This document shows, piece after piece, positions 2,139 to 29,900 of a stretch of 64,000 nucleotides of DNA. Source of the DNA: Blattabacterium cuenoti (GTDB lineage Bacteria; Bacteroidota; Bacteroidia; Flavobacteriales; Blattabacteriaceae); NCBI RefSeq assembly GCF_014251655.1, contig NZ_CP059225.1, positions 480,028-544,027 of the forward strand. The letters run 5' to 3'. The position numbers and the translations under genes were made by a program. Below the pieces are notes generated by a model. That model had not been told where the DNA came from. It saw only the letters and a program-made list of their open reading frames with translations, and made no database searches. Position 1 is the stretch's first letter, and each line of letters opens with the position of its first letter.

Positions 2139-2903
2139 TCAAATAGTAAGTGAGTCTATATACTCATAATTCATGAAAGAAATATATTCTGTAGATATCC
2201 CCTTTGGACACTCTATTTCACATGCTTTAGTATTAGAGCAACTACCAAACCCTTCTTCGTCCATTTTATTAACCATATTGATTACTCTTCTTTTTCTTTC
2301 TATTTTACCTTGAGGTAATAAAGCAAATTGTGATACTTTTGCTGAAACAAATAACATAGCGGATCTATTTTTACATACAGCGACACATGCTCCACAACCT
2401 ATACATGTAGCTGCATCAAAAGCTTGATCTGCTTGATCTTTTGGTATAGGAATTATATTACCGTCTATCGTATTTCCAGATGTATTAACGGAAATAAATC
2501 CACCTGAAACCATAATTCTATCAAAAGAAGATCTATCCACTACAAGATCTTTAATAATGGGAAAAGGTTTAGCTCTCCATGGCTCTATATATATAGTTTG
2601 TTCATTACGAAAATGACGCATGTGCAATTGACAAGTTGTGGTTAAATTTTCTGGACCATGAGCTCTCCCATTAATATACAGAGAACACATTCCGCAAATT
2701 CCTTCACGACAATCATGATCAAATGATATGGAAGTATCTGATTCTTTTTTTTTACATATAATATGATCATTCAACAAATCTAACATTTCTAAAAATGAAC
2801 TATTAGGGGATATATTATATACTTGATAAGTTTTAAAAAAACCTTTTTCTTGATTATTGTTTTGTCTCCATATTTTTAACTTAAAATTCAAAAATTGATT
2901 CAT
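2139..2903 (-). CDS. sdhB: Succinate dehydrogenase / fumarate reductase iron-sulfur subunit
   Basis: SdhB passes electrons from the flavoprotein SdhA to the membrane quinone site through three iron-sulfur clusters. All ligand sets are visible: C65, C70, C73 and C91 for the [2Fe-2S] cluster; C167, C170, C173 and C177, then C222, C228 and C232, for the [4Fe-4S] and [3Fe-4S] clusters. The length, 254 residues, fits Bacteroidota type-B enzymes. It lies 11 bases downstream of sdhA on the same strand and just before accA. The order sdhC-sdhA-sdhB without sdhD is the usual Bacteroidota layout, in which one diheme SdhC forms the whole anchor. Confidence 0.96.
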
Positions 2904-2914
2904 AAAATTATATT

Positions 2915-4951
2915 TTATTTATAAGAACGGGATTCTACTTTCACAAAAGTATAATTTAAATTTTCTTTATGCATTACTTCATCAAAAATAGGTCTGTTTT
3001 TTCTATATTCCCATACAGAAACATATTGATAATGAATATCATCTCTAAGAGCTTCTCCTTCTTTCGTTTGATATTCTTCTCTAAAATGACTTCCACAAGA
3101 TTCTTTTCTACTTAAAGCATCCATAGCCATTAATTCTCCCAATTCTAAAAAATCTGCTACACGTATAGCTTTTTCTAATTCATAATTTAATTTATCCTCA
3201 ATTTTTCCAGGAACAAAAACATTTTTCCAAAATTCATTACGAAGTTCTTGTATATTTTTTATAGCTTTAGATAATCCTATATGATTCCTATTCATTCCTA
3301 CATATTTCCACATAATATTTCCTAATTTTTTGTGAAAAAAATCAACACTTTTGTTCCCTTTATTTTTTTTAATAAGTTGATGAATAAAATCTTTTATATT
3401 TCTCTCAGATTTATCAAATTCTATCTGTTTTATAGATATTTTTTTTGTTTTACCTATGAATATAGATAGGTAATCTGTTATGGTAGATGGTAAAATAAAA
3501 TATCCATCAGCTAATCCTTGCATTAATGCAGATGCTCCTAATCTATTAGCTCCGTGATCGGAAAAATTAGCTTCTCCTATTACAAAACAACCAGGAATTG
3601 AAGACATTAGATTATAATCAACCCATAATCCTCCCATTGTATAATGAACTGCAGGATAAATTTTCATAGGAGTATGATAGGGATTTTTATCCGTTATTTT
3701 TTCATACATATGAAATAAATTTCCATATTTAGATTCTAACATTTTTTCTCCTAATCTTTTTTTTTCTAAATGATTATAATTTTTTATTCCAAGTTCATTG
3801 GCTTTTTCTTCCCCGTATCTGTCTATAGCATCATGAAAATCTAAAAAAACCCCTTCTTTAGTTTCATTATTTTCCACTCCCAATCCATTATCACAACGTT
3901 CTTTAGCCGCTCTAGAAGCAACATCTCTAGGGACAAGATTCCCAAATGAAGGATAACGTCTTTCCAAATAATAATCTCTTTCTTCCTCACTAATATCTTC
4001 AGGTTTTTTAGTACAATTCCGTATAGAAATAGCATCTTCAATTTTTTTTGGGACCCATATACGTCCATCATTTCTCAATGATTCAGACATTAACGTTAAT
4101 TTAGATTGATAATTTCCATGTATTGGAATACAAGTGGGATGAATTTGTGTGTAACAAGGATTAGCAAAAAACCCACCTTTTTTATGAACTTTCCATATGG
4201 CACTTGCATTAGATCCCATAGCATTCGTAGATAAAAAAAATACATTTCCATAACCTCCTGATGCTATTACTATAGCATGGGCCGCATGTCTTTCTATTTC
4301 TCCAGAAACAAGATTTCTAGTAATTATTCCTCTAGCCCTACCTTCTACGACTACTAAATCAAGCATTTCATGACGATTATACATTTTTATTCTTCCTTTT
4401 CCTATTTGTCTAGACATAGCAGAATAACAACCTAATAATAGTTGTTGTCCAGTTTGTCCTTTCGCATAAAAAGTTCTAGATACTTTTGTTCCTCCAAAAG
4501 ATCGAGTTTCTAAATATCCGGCATAATCTCTGGCAAATGGAACTCCTTGAGCAACGCATTGATCAATAATATGGGAAGATATTTCAGTCAATCGATAGAC
4601 ATTCGCTTCTCTAGATCGATAATCTCCTCCTTTAATTGTATCATAAAAAAGTTGATAAATAGAGTCATTATCTCCTTTATAATTTTTAGAAGCATTGATC
4701 CCACCTTGTGCCGCCACAGAATGTGCTCTTCTAGGAGAATCTTGATAACAGAATGCTTTTACCTGATATCCTAATTCAGATAAAGAAGCACTAACTGAAC
4801 CTCCTGATAGTCCTGTTCCAACTACAATAATTTCTATATCCTTTCTATTATTAGGAGATATTAATTTTAAAGTAGATTTATGATTTTTCCATTTTTGATT
4901 CAGTGCCCCTAATGGAATTTTAGAATTTAATTTTAAATAATTTTTAACCAT
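2915..4951 (-). CDS. sdhA: Succinate dehydrogenase / fumarate reductase flavoprotein subunit
   Basis: SdhA oxidises succinate to fumarate at a covalently bound FAD. The dinucleotide-binding fold is seen at residues 43-60 (VVGTGLSGG). H77 in [11 protein letters not shown] is the expected FAD-linked histidine. Later segments [20 protein letters not shown] and [15 protein letters not shown] are characteristic of the family and contribute substrate and FAD contacts. At 678 residues it is longer than proteobacterial SdhA (about 590), as is normal for Bacteroidota type-B enzymes. It sits between sdhC (9 bases upstream) and sdhB (11 bases downstream). No broken motif is seen. Confidence 0.96.
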
Positions 4952-4960
4952 TGAAAAATA

Positions 4961-5611
4961 TTAGTTTAAAAAAAACCAAATAGCGATAATAGAAAAACCG
5001 GAACAAATAAACAAAAAGTAAATAAACCCTAATCTTTTTATCCATCCAAATCTTTTTCTATTGGATAATCCTAAAGATTGAAAGGAAGATTGAAATCCAT
5101 GATTTAAATGAATTCCCAAAATAAAGAAAGAAAATACATATATAAATGTATATAAAGGATTCTTAAATAAAGAAACCACAATATGATAATCCGAAGTTAA
5201 ATGATAATATTTCATAGGGATCATGAAATTGATAAGATGTAAAATCAAAAAACAAAGAATTAAAATACCTGTATATATCATGGAACGACTACTGAACGTA
5301 GTAGTTAAATAAGAGGTCATTCCATAATCTACTTCTCCTTTTATTCTTCTATTTTTTAAATGCAATTTAATTCCAAATAATATATGAGTAATAAAACCCA
5401 TAGCAAGTATATATTCCATCCCTCGAATAAATAAGTTATTCCTCATGAAATAAACAGCTTCATTAAAAGTTTTTTCTCCTGAAAAAAGAAAAAGATTAAC
5501 ACTCAAATGCAATAACAAAAAAAACATAAGAAATATCCCTGTAATGGCCATAACCACTTTTTTCCCAATAGAAGATTGAAATAAATTATTATGATTCACT
5601 GATGATTCCAT
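4961..5611 (-). CDS. sdhC: Succinate dehydrogenase cytochrome b subunit (type B, single anchor)
   Basis: This is the membrane anchor of complex II and carries b-type heme and the menaquinone site. The 216-residue protein shows about five hydrophobic helices, roughly residues 20-42, 62-82, 111-131, 145-172 and 190-214. Histidines suited to heme ligation occur in LLHLSVN, FITHILFG, LILHLIN and GIHLNHGFQS. Its length and single-gene anchor match the Bacteroidota and Bacillus type-B enzymes rather than the split SdhC/SdhD pair. It opens the sdhCAB cluster and follows the cysteine desulfurase gene by 21 bases, which suggests co-transcription with that gene. Confidence 0.92.
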   Translation of the reverse strand: MESSVNHNNLFQSSIGKKVVMAITGIFLMFFLLLHLSVNLFLFSGEKTFNEAVYFMRNNLFIRGMEYILAMGFITHILFGIKLHLKNRRIKGEVDYGMTSYLTTTFSSRSMIYTGILILCFLILHLINFMIPMKYYHLTSDYHIVVSLFKNPLYTFIYVFSFFILGIHLNHGFQSSFQSLGLSNRKRFGWIKRLGFIYFLFICSGFSIIAIWFFLN

Positions 5612-11743: not shown

Positions 11744-12058
11744 TTAATTTCCATGTAAAAAAATTTTTTTTTCAAAAAGTTTTTCTTTAGTTTCCATTTG
11801 ATCTGTAACACAACAATGAACTGGACATACGATCATACATTGTGGTTCATCATAAAAACCAATACATTCCGTACATTTTTCTGATACAATAAAGTATATA
11901 TCTTCTTTAATCGGTTTTTGATCAAAATAAAAATTTTTTTTTAAATAAGTTCCTTCTGACATATTCCATTTTTTACCCCCTTCGTAAATTGCTTGGTTAG
12001 GACATTCCTCTTCACAAGCTCCACAATTAATACATTCTTCTGTAATTTTTATGGACAT
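11744..12058 (-). CDS. 4Fe-4S dicluster ferredoxin (YfhL-like)
   Basis: A small electron carrier of 104 residues with two [4Fe-4S] sites. The first set is C10, C13 and C16 followed by C20 ([12 protein letters not shown]). The second set begins CTEC and ends with [10 protein letters not shown], separated by an insertion, as in the Alvin/YfhL-type ferredoxins. It is divergent from the LuxC-type acyl-CoA reductase gene, with 30 bases between the two starts, so both probably share a regulatory region. In Flavobacteriia the same two genes often occur together, which hints at a functional link, but no redox partner is established from this sequence. Confidence 0.9.
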
Positions 12059-19529: not shown

Positions 19530-19734
19530 AAGAAATCCATATGAAAAATAGTTTATTTTTTGTTGGAAGATTACCAAAAAAAATTAGATTAAATTTTTTT
19601 ACTATAGAAAATAATTTGTTTTTTAGTTATTATTTTTCAATAAATTATTGTTTACTTTGAATTTGTTGTGTATTTGATCCTATTCACTTTCTCTATTTCC
19701 ATCGTATGATAGAAATTTTATTCTACTTATTAAT

Positions 19735-20330
19735 CAATGGATTTATTTTTATATAAATTAATAGATAAGTTTATTCAACTTTTATATATTTTATTTTTTC
19801 TATCAAGATAAAAATCATCTATATGATCATGAAAAAATAGAAAACTATAATTGATAATTTTTATTGCAGTAATTTTATCAATACTTTTAACGGATTAAAA
19901 AAAAACAAAGACCTCATATGAGTGGTGGTAATAAAATAAGATATTAATAGATAATTATATGGTCATTATTAGGATTAGTTTTACTGAAAATTATTACAAT
20001 ATTTTATCATTTCTATGATTTTTTCATACGAAATTTTTTATGCATAAGATTAAAATTATTAAAAAAATGGATGGATGATATTATAGCTGGATTAAATAAA
20101 ACTGATAAAAAAAACTTTTAAATAAAGTATTTATCGTTTTATATGAATGAAAAAAAAGATACTTATTGGATCAATCTTCATCTTGGATCAATCTTCATCA
20201 TTTAAAAACGATTATTCAATATAAAAGATTACATATTAATAATTGTCATTATTTAACTGTTTATTCTATGGTTTTTTATTATTAATATTAGATAAAAAAA
20301 TAATTCAATTAACTAAAACAAGTTGATATC
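19735..20330 (+). pseudogene. Remnant of a cation diffusion facilitator (CDF) metal exporter
   Basis: The 1005 bases between uvrD and the DUF4290 gene hold no open frame, but pieces of a CDF transporter can be read in shifting frames. At 19801-19842 YQDKNHLYDHEKIE matches the family's D-NHPYGHGK-E motif. At about 19957-20005 SLLGLVLLKIITIF resembles a membrane helix. At about 20054-20110 KKWMDDIIAGLNKTDKK matches the helix ending in IAGxMDEAD. At about 20157-20260 TYWINLH...HLKTIIQYKRLHINNCHYLT matches the cytoplasmic W-I-D-LHNLR-IKYG-LH-D-HLT segment. A 17-base tandem duplication inside the last piece, several stops and frame changes show it is dead. The flanks 19530-19734 and 20331-20534 look like further decayed ends with nothing identifiable. 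Edges are approximate. Confidence 0.62.
20166..20199 (+). repeat. 17-base perfect tandem duplication
   Basis: The unit TTGGATCAATCTTCATC occurs twice head to tail (20166-20182 and 20183-20199). Removing one copy restores a continuous reading frame YWINLHHLKTIIQYKRLH, which matches the cytoplasmic domain of CDF transporters. The duplication is therefore probably one of the mutations that inactivated, or followed inactivation of, the gene. Confidence 0.9.
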
Positions 20331-20534
20331 TAAATTTTATGTAGATATTATTATAATAAGTAGAATATATACGATTGATCTATCTAATAATCATGGTATA
20401 TTATTTTGTTCTAATAATTATTCATGGTAAAAAAATTTTTTTTGTACTTTATATCAAATATATAAAAAGTAAAAAGACTAAAGCTACCTAAATTAGATTA
20501 CTAGTTTTTTACATATCAAAAACATAAAATTAAT

Positions 20535-25277: not shown

Positions 25278-25871
25278 ATGAATAAAGAAAAATTGCGTAA
25301 AAAATATTTTTTTTATAGAAAATCGATATCTCAAGAAGAAGTTACAAAAATGAGTTATAAAATATTTTTTCAGATAAAAAAAATATTGTATTTATGGGAA
25401 AAAAAATATTACCATATTTTTTTGCCTATACAAAAAAATAAAGAAGTAGATACTTTTATGATTATTGATTTTCTTCTAAAAAAAGGAAAATATATAATAG
25501 TACCATCCTCTAATTTTCATCTTATTTCCATAGAAAATTGTTTTTTTAATAAGAATACTTCATTATTCAAAAATAAACATGGAATTTTAGAACCTATATA
25601 TAAACATATTGTTTCCATATCTTTAATTGAAGTTATATTTATTCCATTATTGATCTTTGATTTAAAAGGATTTCGCGTAGGTTATGGAAAAGGTTTTTAT
25701 GATAGATTGATTCCTTTATGTAGAAAAAATGTAATTAAAATAGGGTTAAGTTTTTTTCCTCCTGTAAAAGAAATTATAAATATTCATGAAAAAGACCTAT
25801 TTTTAAACATAGGAGTAACAACTGACCGTATTTTTTTCTTTAAGAAAGGTTCAGTAAAAAAAAACTTTTAA
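25278..25871 (+). CDS. 5-formyltetrahydrofolate cyclo-ligase family protein
   Basis: The enzyme converts 5-formyl-THF to 5,10-methenyl-THF with ATP, returning a storage form of folate to one-carbon metabolism. The C-terminal signature GYGKGFYDRLI with the preceding FIPLLIFDLKGFRVG is diagnostic. The N-terminal RKKYFFYRKSIS helix is also typical. At 197 residues it is full length. Folate synthesis (folP at 55.8 kb) and metE at 43.7 kb give it a context. Its last 21 bases overlap the convergent rseP gene. Confidence 0.9.
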   Translation: MNKEKLRKKYFFYRKSISQEEVTKMSYKIFFQIKKILYLWEKKYYHIFLPIQKNKEVDTFMIIDFLLKKGKYIIVPSSNFHLISIENCFFNKNTSLFKNKHGILEPIYKHIVSISLIEVIFIPLLIFDLKGFRVGYGKGFYDRLIPLCRKNVIKIGLSFFPPVKEIINIHEKDLFLNIGVTTDRIFFFKKGSVKKNF

Positions 25872-27176
25872 AATATCCCAAATAACGATAAATATCATAA
25901 TTAAACTAATTATCAAAAATCCAAAAATGGTGCATCGTTCAATAATTTTTTCATTTATTTTCTTTTTTGATATCATTTCTATTATGATAAATAACATATA
26001 ACCTCCATCTAATGATGGAATAGGAAATAAATTTAAAAAAGCTATCCAAATGGATAAAGTAGCAGTAAAAGTCCAAAAAATATCCCAATTCCATTTAGAA
26101 GGAAATTCTTTAGCCATAGAAAAAAAACTTCCTATTTGTTTGTAAGCTTTAGTTTCTATATGAAAAATATTTTTAAAAAAAAATATTTGATGTTTTAAAA
26201 CATTCCAAGTTCTATTAATTCCATTAGGAATACTTTGAAAAAAAGTATAATTCTTTTTTTCAAATGAAAAAATACGATCTAATTCCATAAAATTTTTCAA
26301 GTAAATCCCTAATATTCCTCTCTGACTGATGAAAATATTTTTTTTTAAAAATCTTCCATTTCTATTGATAGAAATTAAAATATTTTCGTTTTTATATTTT
26401 GATAATAATTCTTTCAGTTGGTCAGAGAAAAGAATGAATTCTGAATTGATTCCTAATATTTCATCATTATTTCTTAATCCGTATTTTTCCGCTACGGAAT
26501 TTTTCATTACATAATGAATTATGGGAGGAACACGAGGTTGAATAAAAAAACTTAGTTTTTTCCTATCAAAAAAAAATTTTTTTTTCTGATGATTTAATGA
26601 TAGTTTAATGATTTTCCCCATACGATTTACAGTAACAGAATTTCCAAAAATAATGGCTTTAGGAATATCATTGAAATATGAAATATATTTTCCGTTTACA
26701 AATAAAATTTTATCCCCATTTTTTAATCCCATCTTTTTCCCCAAAGAATCTACTTCTATTCCGTATTTAACGTTTTTTGTAGGAAGATAAGTTTCTCCAT
26801 ATTGAAATATTAAACAAGTAAAAATGAAAATAGATAATAATATATTAAAAAGAATACCTCCAGAAATAATTAAAAATCTTTTTATTGCTGACTTAGAACG
26901 AAATTCCCAATCTTTACTTTCATTTTTTGACGTTTTATCATCTATCATCATTCCAGATATTTTAACATATCCTCCTAAAGGTAACCACCCTATTCCATAA
27001 ACAGTATGTCCTATTTTTTTTTTGAAAATGGAAAACCAAGGATCAAAAAATAAAAAAAATCTTTCTACACGAACTTTAAAAGCTTGAGCTATAATAAAAT
27101 GACCTAATTCATGAATAATAATTAATATAGAAATACTAAGTAATAATTGTATTGATCTAATCAAAATAGATATCAT
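25851..27176 (-). CDS. rseP: Site-2 intramembrane zinc metalloprotease RseP
   Basis: RseP cuts transmembrane segments of regulatory or signal-peptide substrates within the inner membrane. The zinc motif HELGH is at 22-26 in the first helix. The second motif, NLFPIPSLDGG, is near residue 385 with the metal-binding aspartate. Two PDZ-like segments (about 120-200 and 205-290, including GLKNGDKILFVNGK and GLRNNDEILGIN) lie between, and a C-terminal helix closes the protein. At 441 residues it matches the double-PDZ Bacteroidota form. No cognate anti-sigma factor gene is in the window. Its 3' end overlaps the cyclo-ligase gene. Confidence 0.93.
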   Translation of the reverse strand: MISILIRSIQLLLSISILIIIHELGHFIIAQAFKVRVERFFLFFDPWFSIFKKKIGHTVYGIGWLPLGGYVKISGMMIDDKTSKNESKDWEFRSKSAIKRFLIISGGILFNILLSIFIFTCLIFQYGETYLPTKNVKYGIEVDSLGKKMGLKNGDKILFVNGKYISYFNDIPKAIIFGNSVTVNRMGKIIKLSLNHQKKKFFFDRKKLSFFIQPRVPPIIHYVMKNSVAEKYGLRNNDEILGINSEFILFSDQLKELLSKYKNENILISINRNGRFLKKNIFISQRGILGIYLKNFMELDRIFSFEKKNYTFFQSIPNGINRTWNVLKHQIFFFKNIFHIETKAYKQIGSFFSMAKEFPSKWNWDIFWTFTATLSIWIAFLNLFPIPSLDGGYMLFIIIEMISKKKINEKIIERCTIFGFLIISLIMIFIVIWDILKVFFY

Positions 27177-27228: not shown

Positions 27229-27454
27229 TTGAATCTATCTAATCTTAAAAAAGGAGAAAAAGGGATTATTAATTAAAGGATATAAAAATGAAGATTTTCC
27301 TATTAAACTATTAGAATTAGTAATTTTACCTGGAGTAAAATTTGAAATACTTTTCGTTTCTATTTTTTATGATCCACTATGTATAAGTTACGAAAATACT
27401 TGTTTAGTTTTACGTAAAAAATAAGCAGAAAATATTATAATAGAACCTATTTAA
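27229..27454 (+). pseudogene. feoA: Inactivated feoA (ferrous iron transport accessory protein)
   Basis: Read from a TTG at 27229, NLSNLKKGEKGII and then, after a one-base frame change near 27270, IKGYKNEDFPIKLLELVILPGVKFEI give the SH3-like FeoA fold. The frame continues with DPLCIS and LVLRKK, meets a TAA at 27421-27423 where a glutamate codon is expected, and resumes AENIIIEPI to a terminal stop at 27452-27454. One frameshift plus one nonsense change, and loss of an ATG start, make it non-functional. It is followed directly by the feoB remnant in the order of intact Flavobacteriia feo operons. Confidence 0.82.
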
Positions 27455-27493
27455 TCTTACATCTTTAATCTTCCATCAAATGAAAAACGAAGA

Positions 27494-28785
27494 ATGATTA
27501 TTAATAAATTAGCCATCATTGGAAACCCAAATGTAGGTAAAACTTCTTTGTTTAATAAAATTCACTGGACTTAATCAAAAAATAGGAAATTATCTTGGAG
27601 TTACGGTAGAAAAAAAATAGGATATTTCTATTATAATAATAAGTATTATCAAATTATAGATCTTCCTGTAATTTATAACATATATCCTTCTTATGAAGAT
27701 GAAGAAGTAGTTAAGTTAGTAAACTACTCAATAACAAAGAATATGTAAATGATCCAGATAAAATTTTATTAGTGGTAGATTCTTCTAATTTAAAAAAAAG
27801 TCTTTTATTATTTATTCAGTCAAATACAAGATTTAGGATTTCCTATTTTATTTATTTTGAATATGATAGACGAAGCAGAAAAAAAGGGAATATTTATTGA
27901 TATAAAAAAACTAAAAGAACTTTTTTTTACAGAAATTGTTACAATCAATGCCAGAAAAGGAATAGGATTAGAAAAAACAAAAAAAGTAATAAAAAATTTT
28001 AATCAAAAAACAAAAAAACATAATTTTTTTTAATCCAGGATTACAACGATATTCTATAGCCATCAATAATGTAAAAAATAATTATAAAGTAAATACTTAT
28101 AAAGCTTGGTATTATTTAGCTTATAATAGAAAATTATTAAAAGAAGATTCCTTTATAAATAAAATAAAAAATAAATATCATATTGTATCTAGAAGATTAC
28201 AAATAAAAGAAACATTAGATAGGTATGAAAAAATAGGTGAAATTTTATCTCATACAGTTTTCGTTTTTCTTTATAAAAAAAGAAAAAAATATTTAGAACT
28301 TTCTAAAAGAATAGATAATGCTTTAATTCTACATCCTTTACTTTCATTGGGCTATTTGATTTTTTTTCTTTTTTTTGTTTTTCATTTTTCAATGTGTATT
28401 TTTATGTACATAAATTACTAAAGAATTTATAGAATTTTTATTTTCTTTTATCCAAAAAAAAAACTAGATAATTTTAATACAGGTCCTTGTCCTTTAAATC
28501 ATTTTTTATTACGAGGATGATTCTATCTATAGTATAGAACAAAATACCTTAAAAAACATAATGAATAAAGAGATAGAATATCCACATACAAAAAAAACCT
28601 ATTTATAATGTAGCAACAAGTTTTTCTTTACTACTTTTTTATGCATTTTCTATGCAATGTATGACTACTTTATTCATAATAATAAAAGAAAAAAAAAGTC
28701 TTGGAAATGGCCAATCATCCAATTTATTTTTATGACTTTTTTAGCTTATCTTTCTTCCTTTTTAACCTATCAAATATTAAAATAA
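27494..28785 (+). pseudogene. feoB: Inactivated feoB (ferrous iron transporter), frameshifted and internally deleted
   Basis: FeoB is a GTPase-coupled Fe2+ importer of about 700 residues. Here its parts are spread over all three frames. From the ATG at 27494, LAIIGNPNVGKTSLFNK is the G1 motif. An extra base near 27563 shifts into TGLNQKIGNYLGVTVEKK. A short A run (27610-27617) shifts again into IIDLPVIYNIYPSYEDEEVV, where the G3 glycine is valine. Further pieces are DPDKILLVVDSSNLKKSLLL, then FPILFILNMIDEAEKKG (G4), the helical linker, SKRIDNALILHP and a first membrane helix. The gate core is missing. The C-terminus resumes with VATSFSLLLFYAFSMQCMTTL and SWKWPIIQFIFMTFLAYL. Roughly 0.8 kb has been lost. 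It cannot make a transporter. Confidence 0.88.
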
Positions 28786-28787
28786 AA

Positions 28788-28911
28788 TGTATCAATACTT
28801 AATAATAGGAATATTTTTTTTGTATTCAGTTATTTATTTATTCAAAAAATTATATATATTTTTTATGTATGATAAAAAAATTTGTAAAAAAAATGCAATT
28901 GTCATCCATGA
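28788..28911 (+). pseudogene. Remnant of FeoB-associated Cys-rich membrane protein
   Basis: Three bases after the feoB stop an ATG opens a small protein with one hydrophobic helix (YLIIGIFFLYSVIYLF) followed by a basic tail, as in the FeoB-associated Cys-rich proteins next to feoB in Flavobacteriia. In the annotated frame the expected Cys-rich end is lost after KICKK. One base change at the 8-A run 28886-28893 would give KCNCHP and a stop at 28909-28911, close to the family's terminal C-x-C-H pattern. With feoAB dead it has no partner. Confidence 0.6.
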
Positions 28912-28922
28912 GAAATATTTTT

Positions 28923-29900
28923 CTACTTTAAAGATGAATATATTGCATTTTTAAATAAATCAGACAAAGATATTCCATATATTTCTAATTGTTTAGGAAA
29001 AATACTTTCTTTTGAAAGACCTGGAACAGTATTAATTTCCAAGAAGAATGGTTCTTCATTCACAATGATATATTCAGATCTAGATATTCCAGATAAATTT
29101 AGAAATTGATATACTTTTTTCGCTAATTTTCGTATTTTTTTTTCTACACTTGGAAGTAATTTTGCTGGGGTTATTTCTTGAGATTTTCCAGAATATTTTG
29201 ATTCAAAATCAAAAAAATCGTTTTGACTAATAATTTCTGTTATAGGTAAAACATAAATTTTTTTATCGAATGAAAAAACTCCTACAGAAACTTCTCTTCC
29301 TTTAAGAAAAGATTCAATGATAATCTCTTCATCTTCTTGAAATGCCTTTTCTACTGCATTTAAAAAATATTTTTTTTCATAGACCTTACTGATTCCCAAA
29401 CTAGATCCTGATTTATTAGGTTTAACAAAACAAGGAAGTCCTACTTTTTTTAAAATTTTTTCTATACAAAAACATTGATTTTTTTTATTTAAAAAGAAAA
29501 ATTCTGCGGTATGAACCCCAAAATGTTTTAATAAAGTCAAACAATACTTTTTGTTAAAAGTCACATTAGCATGATGAAAATTACATCCTGTATAAGGTAT
29601 TTTTAATAACTCAAAATAAGCTTGTAAAATTCCATCTTCTCCTGGAGTCCCATGTATAGCATTAAATACACAATCAAACTGAATAACCCTATTTTTTCCT
29701 ATATTAACAGTAAAATTATATTTGTTGATAGGATATTCGTTGTTTTTTTCATCTTTCATAAACCATCTTTCTTCAAAAATATAAATCCGATAAGGATCAA
29801 ATTTATTTCTGCATAAATTTTCATAAACAACTTCTCCGCTTTTTATCGATACTTCAGACTCTTTTGTATATCCACCCATAACAACTGCTATTTTTTTCAT
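28923..29900 (-). CDS. ddl: D-alanine--D-alanine ligase
   Basis: Ddl makes the D-Ala-D-Ala dipeptide that MurF attaches to the peptidoglycan precursor. The N-terminus KKIAVVMGGYTKESEVS is typical. The ATP-grasp domain has KPNKSGSSLGISKV (the flexible serine loop), and the metal-binding end has FFLEINTVPGLSKES. At 325 residues it is full length. It starts 42 bases from the divergent PASTA-protein gene and ends 11 bases from the feo remnants. The window also has murA and murF, so peptidoglycan synthesis appears active. Confidence 0.95.
   Translation of the reverse strand: MKKIAVVMGGYTKESEVSIKSGEVVYENLCRNKFDPYRIYIFEERWFMKDEKNNEYPINKYNFTVNIGKNRVIQFDCVFNAIHGTPGEDGILQAYFELLKIPYTGCNFHHANVTFNKKYCLTLLKHFGVHTAEFFFLNKKNQCFCIEKILKKVGLPCFVKPNKSGSSLGISKVYEKKYFLNAVEKAFQEDEEIIIESFLKGREVSVGVFSFDKKIYVLPITEIISQNDFFDFESKYSGKSQEITPAKLLPSVEKKIRKLAKKVYQFLNLSGISRSEYIIVNEEPFFLEINTVPGLSKESIFPKQLEIYGISLSDLFKNAIYSSLK

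Follow-up and report, generated by a model that had tools for sequence, protein, structure and literature searches.

Decay of the feoA-feoB ferrous iron uptake operon in a Blattabacterium genome that retains an Nramp-type importer

The iron supply of long-term endosymbionts is poorly understood, and the locus between the rseP-like zinc protease gene and ddl in Blattabacterium cuenoti raises the question in a concrete form: is a ferrous iron importer still encoded there, and if it is not, by which route could divalent iron enter the cell and how was the loss tolerated? The window, meaning the whole 64,000-nucleotide stretch that was analyzed, spans positions 480028-544027 of a single 621,203-base contig of the genome labelled G000. 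This genome was compared with 48 relatives, for a set of 49 Blattabacterium-type genomes, and a phylogeny was built with FastTree from six flanking genes. Some nodes of the tree are weakly supported; the sister of G000 in it is G027, with a support of 0.986 and an amino-acid identity of 76%. Lesions in the locus were mapped by frame-aware alignment of the window DNA to the G027 proteins; the G027 fthC gene was left out of the comparisons because its extracted sequence had a frame problem.

The feo locus and its lesions

The arrangement of the locus is conserved throughout the set, with feoA, feoB and a small gene located between rseP and ddl, both on the reverse strand, in 49/49 genomes. The rseP-ddl block measures 1750 bases in G000, as opposed to about 2450-2670 bases in its relatives. 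Both flanking genes are intact in G000 (rseP at 25851-27176, ddl at 28923-29900, both on the reverse strand) and were used as controls for sequence quality. The original prediction described a whole feo operon in decay at 27229-28911, and these coordinates fit the results of profile searches and frame-aware alignment, both of which confirmed the assignment. The FeoA profile PF04023 (30.4 bits, E 2.1e-7, one internal stop) and the FeoB_N profile PF02421 (89 bits, E 8.1e-26, five internal stops) match where they had been expected, at the ancestral locus, identifying the relic as a former FeoAB system.

The feoA pseudogene (27229-27448, forward strand) begins with TTG, the same start as in the relatives, and shares 88.7% identity with G027 FeoA over 71 aligned residues. 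The frameshift and stop foreseen in this gene were both located: in the alignment to G027, a 4-base insertion brings a TAA codon into frame at 27274, and a second lesion converts a Glu codon to a stop at 27422. The 5' part of the feoB pseudogene, comprising the G domain and the start of the membrane part, lies at 27506-28523 on the forward strand and exhibits 74% identity to residues 7-335 of G027 FeoB. The frame is broken here as predicted, although the "at least three" frame changes originally counted were an underestimate, with at least seven frame-shifting indels found in this interval; stop codons are present at 28411 and 28518. The expected glycine-to-valine change in the G3 motif was seen as well (DLPG to DLPV). 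The large internal deletion of the gate domains also proved to be real: about 263 codons (G027 residues 336-598) are gone at a junction placed approximately at 28522, and, by the domain positions of an intact relative's FeoB, the deletion removes the first Gate domain, FeoB_C and part of the second Gate. The sequence resumes in the 3' part of the pseudogene (28522-28782, forward strand), which corresponds to residues 599-685 and carries additional frame disruptions in its tail. The FeoB_C profile (PF07664) has no match anywhere in G000 and is present in 48/48 relatives. A functional FeoAB system would require one uninterrupted feoB frame encoding the G domain, Gate and FeoB_C, and G000 has no such frame. 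An additional feoB copy outside this locus was rejected on the same genome-wide lack of a FeoB_C match.

The small downstream gene (28787-28954, forward strand) encodes in the relatives a protein with one membrane span and a CxxxCxC tail; in the window a run of 8 A instead of 9 shifts the Cys tail out of frame. The loss of the Cys-rich end had been anticipated, but the proposed identity of the gene was not borne out by profile searches, as neither the proteins of two intact relatives nor the window's own protein matched a Cys-rich FeoB-associated family in Pfam or NCBIfam. The name "FeoB-associated" is therefore one of position and shape, the CxxxCxC tail being suggestive only. In G027 the Cys-rich tail of this gene is also out of frame, via homopolymer changes, with feoB open, indicating that loss of the small gene does not depend on loss of feoB.

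Relaxed constraint and the timing of the loss

Related strains had been proposed as the place to look for an intact operon, and feoB is indeed a single open frame in 47 of the 49 genomes, including G027. It is interrupted by a single homopolymer break in G016 and lost only in G000. The G016 gene (303-2350 after the rseP start) is divided into two overlapping frames at a run of T11, compared with T12 in its sister G017; this split may represent early decay, a gene read by slippage, or a miscall. Of 71 alignment columns that are invariant in the 47 intact copies, seven are changed in the FeoB relic, compared with at most 4 of 75 in any functional copy held out as a control. The same invariant-residue count in the flanks of the G000 locus yielded 0/71 changes for RseP and 0/86 for Ddl. 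The relic has thus lost constraint at residues that are invariant in functional copies, as expected of a pseudogene. At the protein level, change on the G000 branch amounts to 13.8% in the FeoB relic versus 8.5% in the neighboring genes (Fisher P 0.011), and in the sister lineage feoB and the neighboring genes have changed to the same extent, at 3.6% each. This pattern is that of relaxed constraint, not of miscalling.

Two explanations would leave the G000 operon working. Homopolymer miscalls or an assembly error could make an intact operon appear broken, and the genome is 75% A+T and rich in homopolymers, the third gene is a single A short in one of its runs, and the G016 feoB break is a T11 versus T12 difference. 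However, the other genes of the window form long open frames covering 90% of it, and only two ORF deserts longer than 400 bases occur away from the window edge, namely the feo block and the interval 19530-20534, which contains the exporter relic described below. The feo lesions themselves include a loss of ~789 bases, 4- and 5-base insertions outside of runs, point stops and the seven changed invariant residues. We reject this explanation as highly improbable, because miscalls do not produce such lesions. Slippage of the polymerase or ribosome might instead rescue the broken frames, so that FeoB is still made; poly(A) slippage rescues some genes in other insect symbionts, and it could fit the single T-run break of G016 and the third gene. 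As an account of G000 feoB it is scarcely credible, as at least seven shifts, the stops and the absent first Gate and FeoB_C are not bridgeable and the substitutions follow the pattern of relaxed constraint.

Since the G027 feoB is open over 685 codons, the loss is younger than the split of G000 and G027 and is assigned to the terminal G000 branch. The fraction of this branch spent without constraint, estimated from codon positions, is 0.23; its bootstrap limits, -1.15 and 0.84, are too wide for dating. The G+C content of the FeoB relic (21.1%) has not dropped below that of the corresponding G027 feoB segment (21.0%), which is consistent with a late loss on this branch. The original prediction of a "recent" loss agrees with the terminal placement, the undropped G+C content and the change of 7 of 71 invariant residues, and holds in a relative sense: the loss is recent only with respect to the terminal branch, which is itself long, and its dating is imprecise.

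Other metal transport genes

Either an alternative route for iron or reliance on host supply had also been predicted, and the alternative route is supported by a single Nramp gene, intact over 456 codons, outside the window (G000:C1, match 312152-313228). The protein scores 610 bits against the NCBIfam MntH model, for which the curated cut-off is 430, and carries the metal-site motifs DPGN in TM1 and MPHN in TM6, placing it in the Nramp/MntH family (NF001923, TIGR01197). Its best PDB chain matches are MntH structures, with residues 61-452 aligned. NCBIfam names this family as a Mn2+ importer, and we infer Fe transport for the G000 protein; as judged from its sequence, it is a likely alternative importer for G000. 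Among other iron routes, TonB-dependent receptors and FecCD proteins were found in none of the 49 genomes, Zip proteins were likewise absent above the cut-off in all 49 (with a single sub-threshold fragment in G046), and no ABC-3 protein was found in G000. Ferritin was considered as a potential third loss and proved intact in 49/49 genomes, so iron storage is kept. The complex II and ferredoxin genes are still present, as had been noted previously, with succinate dehydrogenase including its iron-sulfur subunit (2139-5611) and ferredoxin (11744-12058) both intact in the window.

Of the 49 genomes, 41 have an intact Nramp gene, seven have none (G006, G010, G014, G015, G023, G029 and G039) and G038 has one in decay. 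The Nramp site, which lies between pheA and rplI, retains nothing recognizable in the seven Nramp-less genomes, except for a weak trace in G014. All eight cases together correspond to six losses on the tree if loss is irreversible, a count that would fall with errors at the weakly supported nodes. All eight genomes with Nramp absent or broken keep feoB, and 0/49 genomes are without both importers, which is suggestive of an overlap between FeoB and Nramp; this overlap is incomplete, as many genomes retain both. The absence of any double loss is not significant by itself, because the Nramp-keeping lineages make up ~62% of the tip and cherry branch length and the single FeoB loss would land in one of them ~62% of the time by chance. 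Overlap of the two importers can occur elsewhere: in the account of Boyer et al. (2002) given in PMC3852070, loss of mntH alone left Salmonella fully virulent in one mouse model, and an mntH feoB double mutant was avirulent.

The window also contains the relic of a divalent metal exporter, which the original prediction had missed. This MntE/FieF-like CDF relic (19545-20498, forward strand) is located between uvrD and a DUF4290 gene, within the ORF desert at 19530-20534, where the relatives encode a CDF protein of 315-362 aa. The CDF profile no longer matches in G000, and homology to the intact CDF of the relatives at the same locus was established by frame-aware alignment, with scores of 362 with the G027 protein and 348 with the G030 protein versus 120 +/- 12 for shuffled DNA (shuffles run with the G030 protein). 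The relic exhibits ~52% identity to G027, with about 17 frame events over 950 bases, compared with 74% identity and 9 frame events over 1020 bases for feoB under the same alignment settings; the intact CDF and FeoB proteins show the same conservation between G027 and G030, at 83% each. The G+C content of the CDF relic is 17.7%, versus 23.4% for the gene in G027. Because the CDF relic is further decayed than feoB in identity, frame events and G+C, the exporter was probably lost before the importer in G000. With regard to its subfamily, the intact CDF of the relatives passes the CDF superfamily cut-off (TIGR01297), and of the equivalog models MntE scores best, followed by MamB, MamM and FieF, all below their cut-offs. 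The CDF gene is intact in 41/49 genomes and lost or broken in eight, namely G000, five in which Nramp is absent or decaying (G006, G014, G015, G023 and G038), and G007 and G040. CDF relics were observed in G007 (L264:2711-3177) and G040 (L265:1790-2657), both of which keep FeoB and Nramp.

Loss of the importer in relation to the exporter

We consider it probable that the feo relic represents a feoA-feoB operon that was inherited vertically and turned into a pseudogene on one terminal branch, by ordinary endosymbiont erosion that was tolerable through the overlap of FeoB and Nramp, and with the exporter probably lost first. Nramp, as an MntH-type member of a Mn2+/Fe2+ symporter family, would overlap with FeoB in the import of divalent iron, and either importer could then be dispensable without killing the symbiosis. 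In the G000 lineage, prior loss of the exporter would have reduced the usefulness of a high-capacity ferrous importer or made it mildly harmful, after which feoB, with no further role, may have decayed by drift. Divalent iron would diffuse passively into the periplasm by way of channels in the outer membrane, a route proposed because TonB-dependent receptors are absent genus-wide. The broken feo genes, the intact second importer and the earlier decay of the exporter suggest that G000 has been dismantling one of two overlapping metal-handling routes. The proposed exporter-first coupling is countered by G007 and G040, where exporter loss has also occurred and both importers are kept.

The bearing of the exporter on the loss of feoB can be weighed from the genus-wide pattern. 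Of the seven CDF-loss events, five lie in lineages where an importer was lost as well; with losses placed by branch length, this co-loss has a P of 0.02 over all branches and 0.04 over tips and cherries, and is treated as a lead because the test was picked after the pattern had been seen and the tree contains weak nodes. The post hoc character of these values, the lack of significance of importer exclusivity and the frequency of gene loss in Blattabacterium lineages would all suit plain drift, in which the loss of feoB is unrelated to Nramp or the exporter and host-supplied iron enters otherwise. We nonetheless regard plain drift as rather doubtful, as both sizeable pseudogenes in the 64 kb window handle divalent metals and at least one of the two importers is retained in every genome. 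Selection against iron overload, in which inactivation of feoB after the death of the CDF exporter was favored by a lower Fe2+ influx, would account for the same co-loss count and for the relic ages, which point to the exporter going first; it is unlikely given that exporter loss, complete or under way, is found in G007 and G040 alongside two intact importers, and that the loss of feoB is a single event. Returning to erosion tolerated through importer overlap, a wider pattern may be put forward tentatively, though the odds are somewhat against it: that Blattabacterium has two interchangeable importers (FeoB and Nramp) and one CDF exporter which are repeatedly dismantled, such that the exporter and one importer go and one importer always stays, G000 being the single case that gave up FeoB and not Nramp. 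The Nramp-less genomes are mostly the smallest ones, in which erosion is general; G000 is not small.

With respect to known systems, the relic resembles FeoAB (TIGR00437 for FeoB, PF04023 for FeoA) in gene order, G domain, remaining sequence and its position at the locus shared with 48 relatives, and differs from it in being non-functional, with many frame breaks and with the first Gate and FeoB_C gone. It also resembles the gene erosion known from obligate endosymbionts of insects, other Blattabacterium lineages among them, in that the pseudogene is specific to one lineage and lies at a conserved locus of a small genome rich in A+T; it differs in that the only recognized dedicated ferrous importer has been lost and a second divalent-metal importer kept. 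The process is therefore a known one, and the interest lies in the pairing of two importers and in the staged exporter and importer relics within one genome. In the literature searched, which left subscription papers largely outside, no paper pairs Blattabacterium with MntH, and a pairing with feoB occurs only in a tick-symbiont paper. A natural loss of FeoB set against repeated losses of Nramp makes the question of symbiont iron transporters testable by comparison or complementation, and the staged relics, with the exporter older and the importer younger, allow the order of gene loss to be read inside one physiological module. The converse state to that of G000 was observed in G038, where the Nramp gene (G038:C1:290711-291756) is in decay, with several stops, and feoB is intact.
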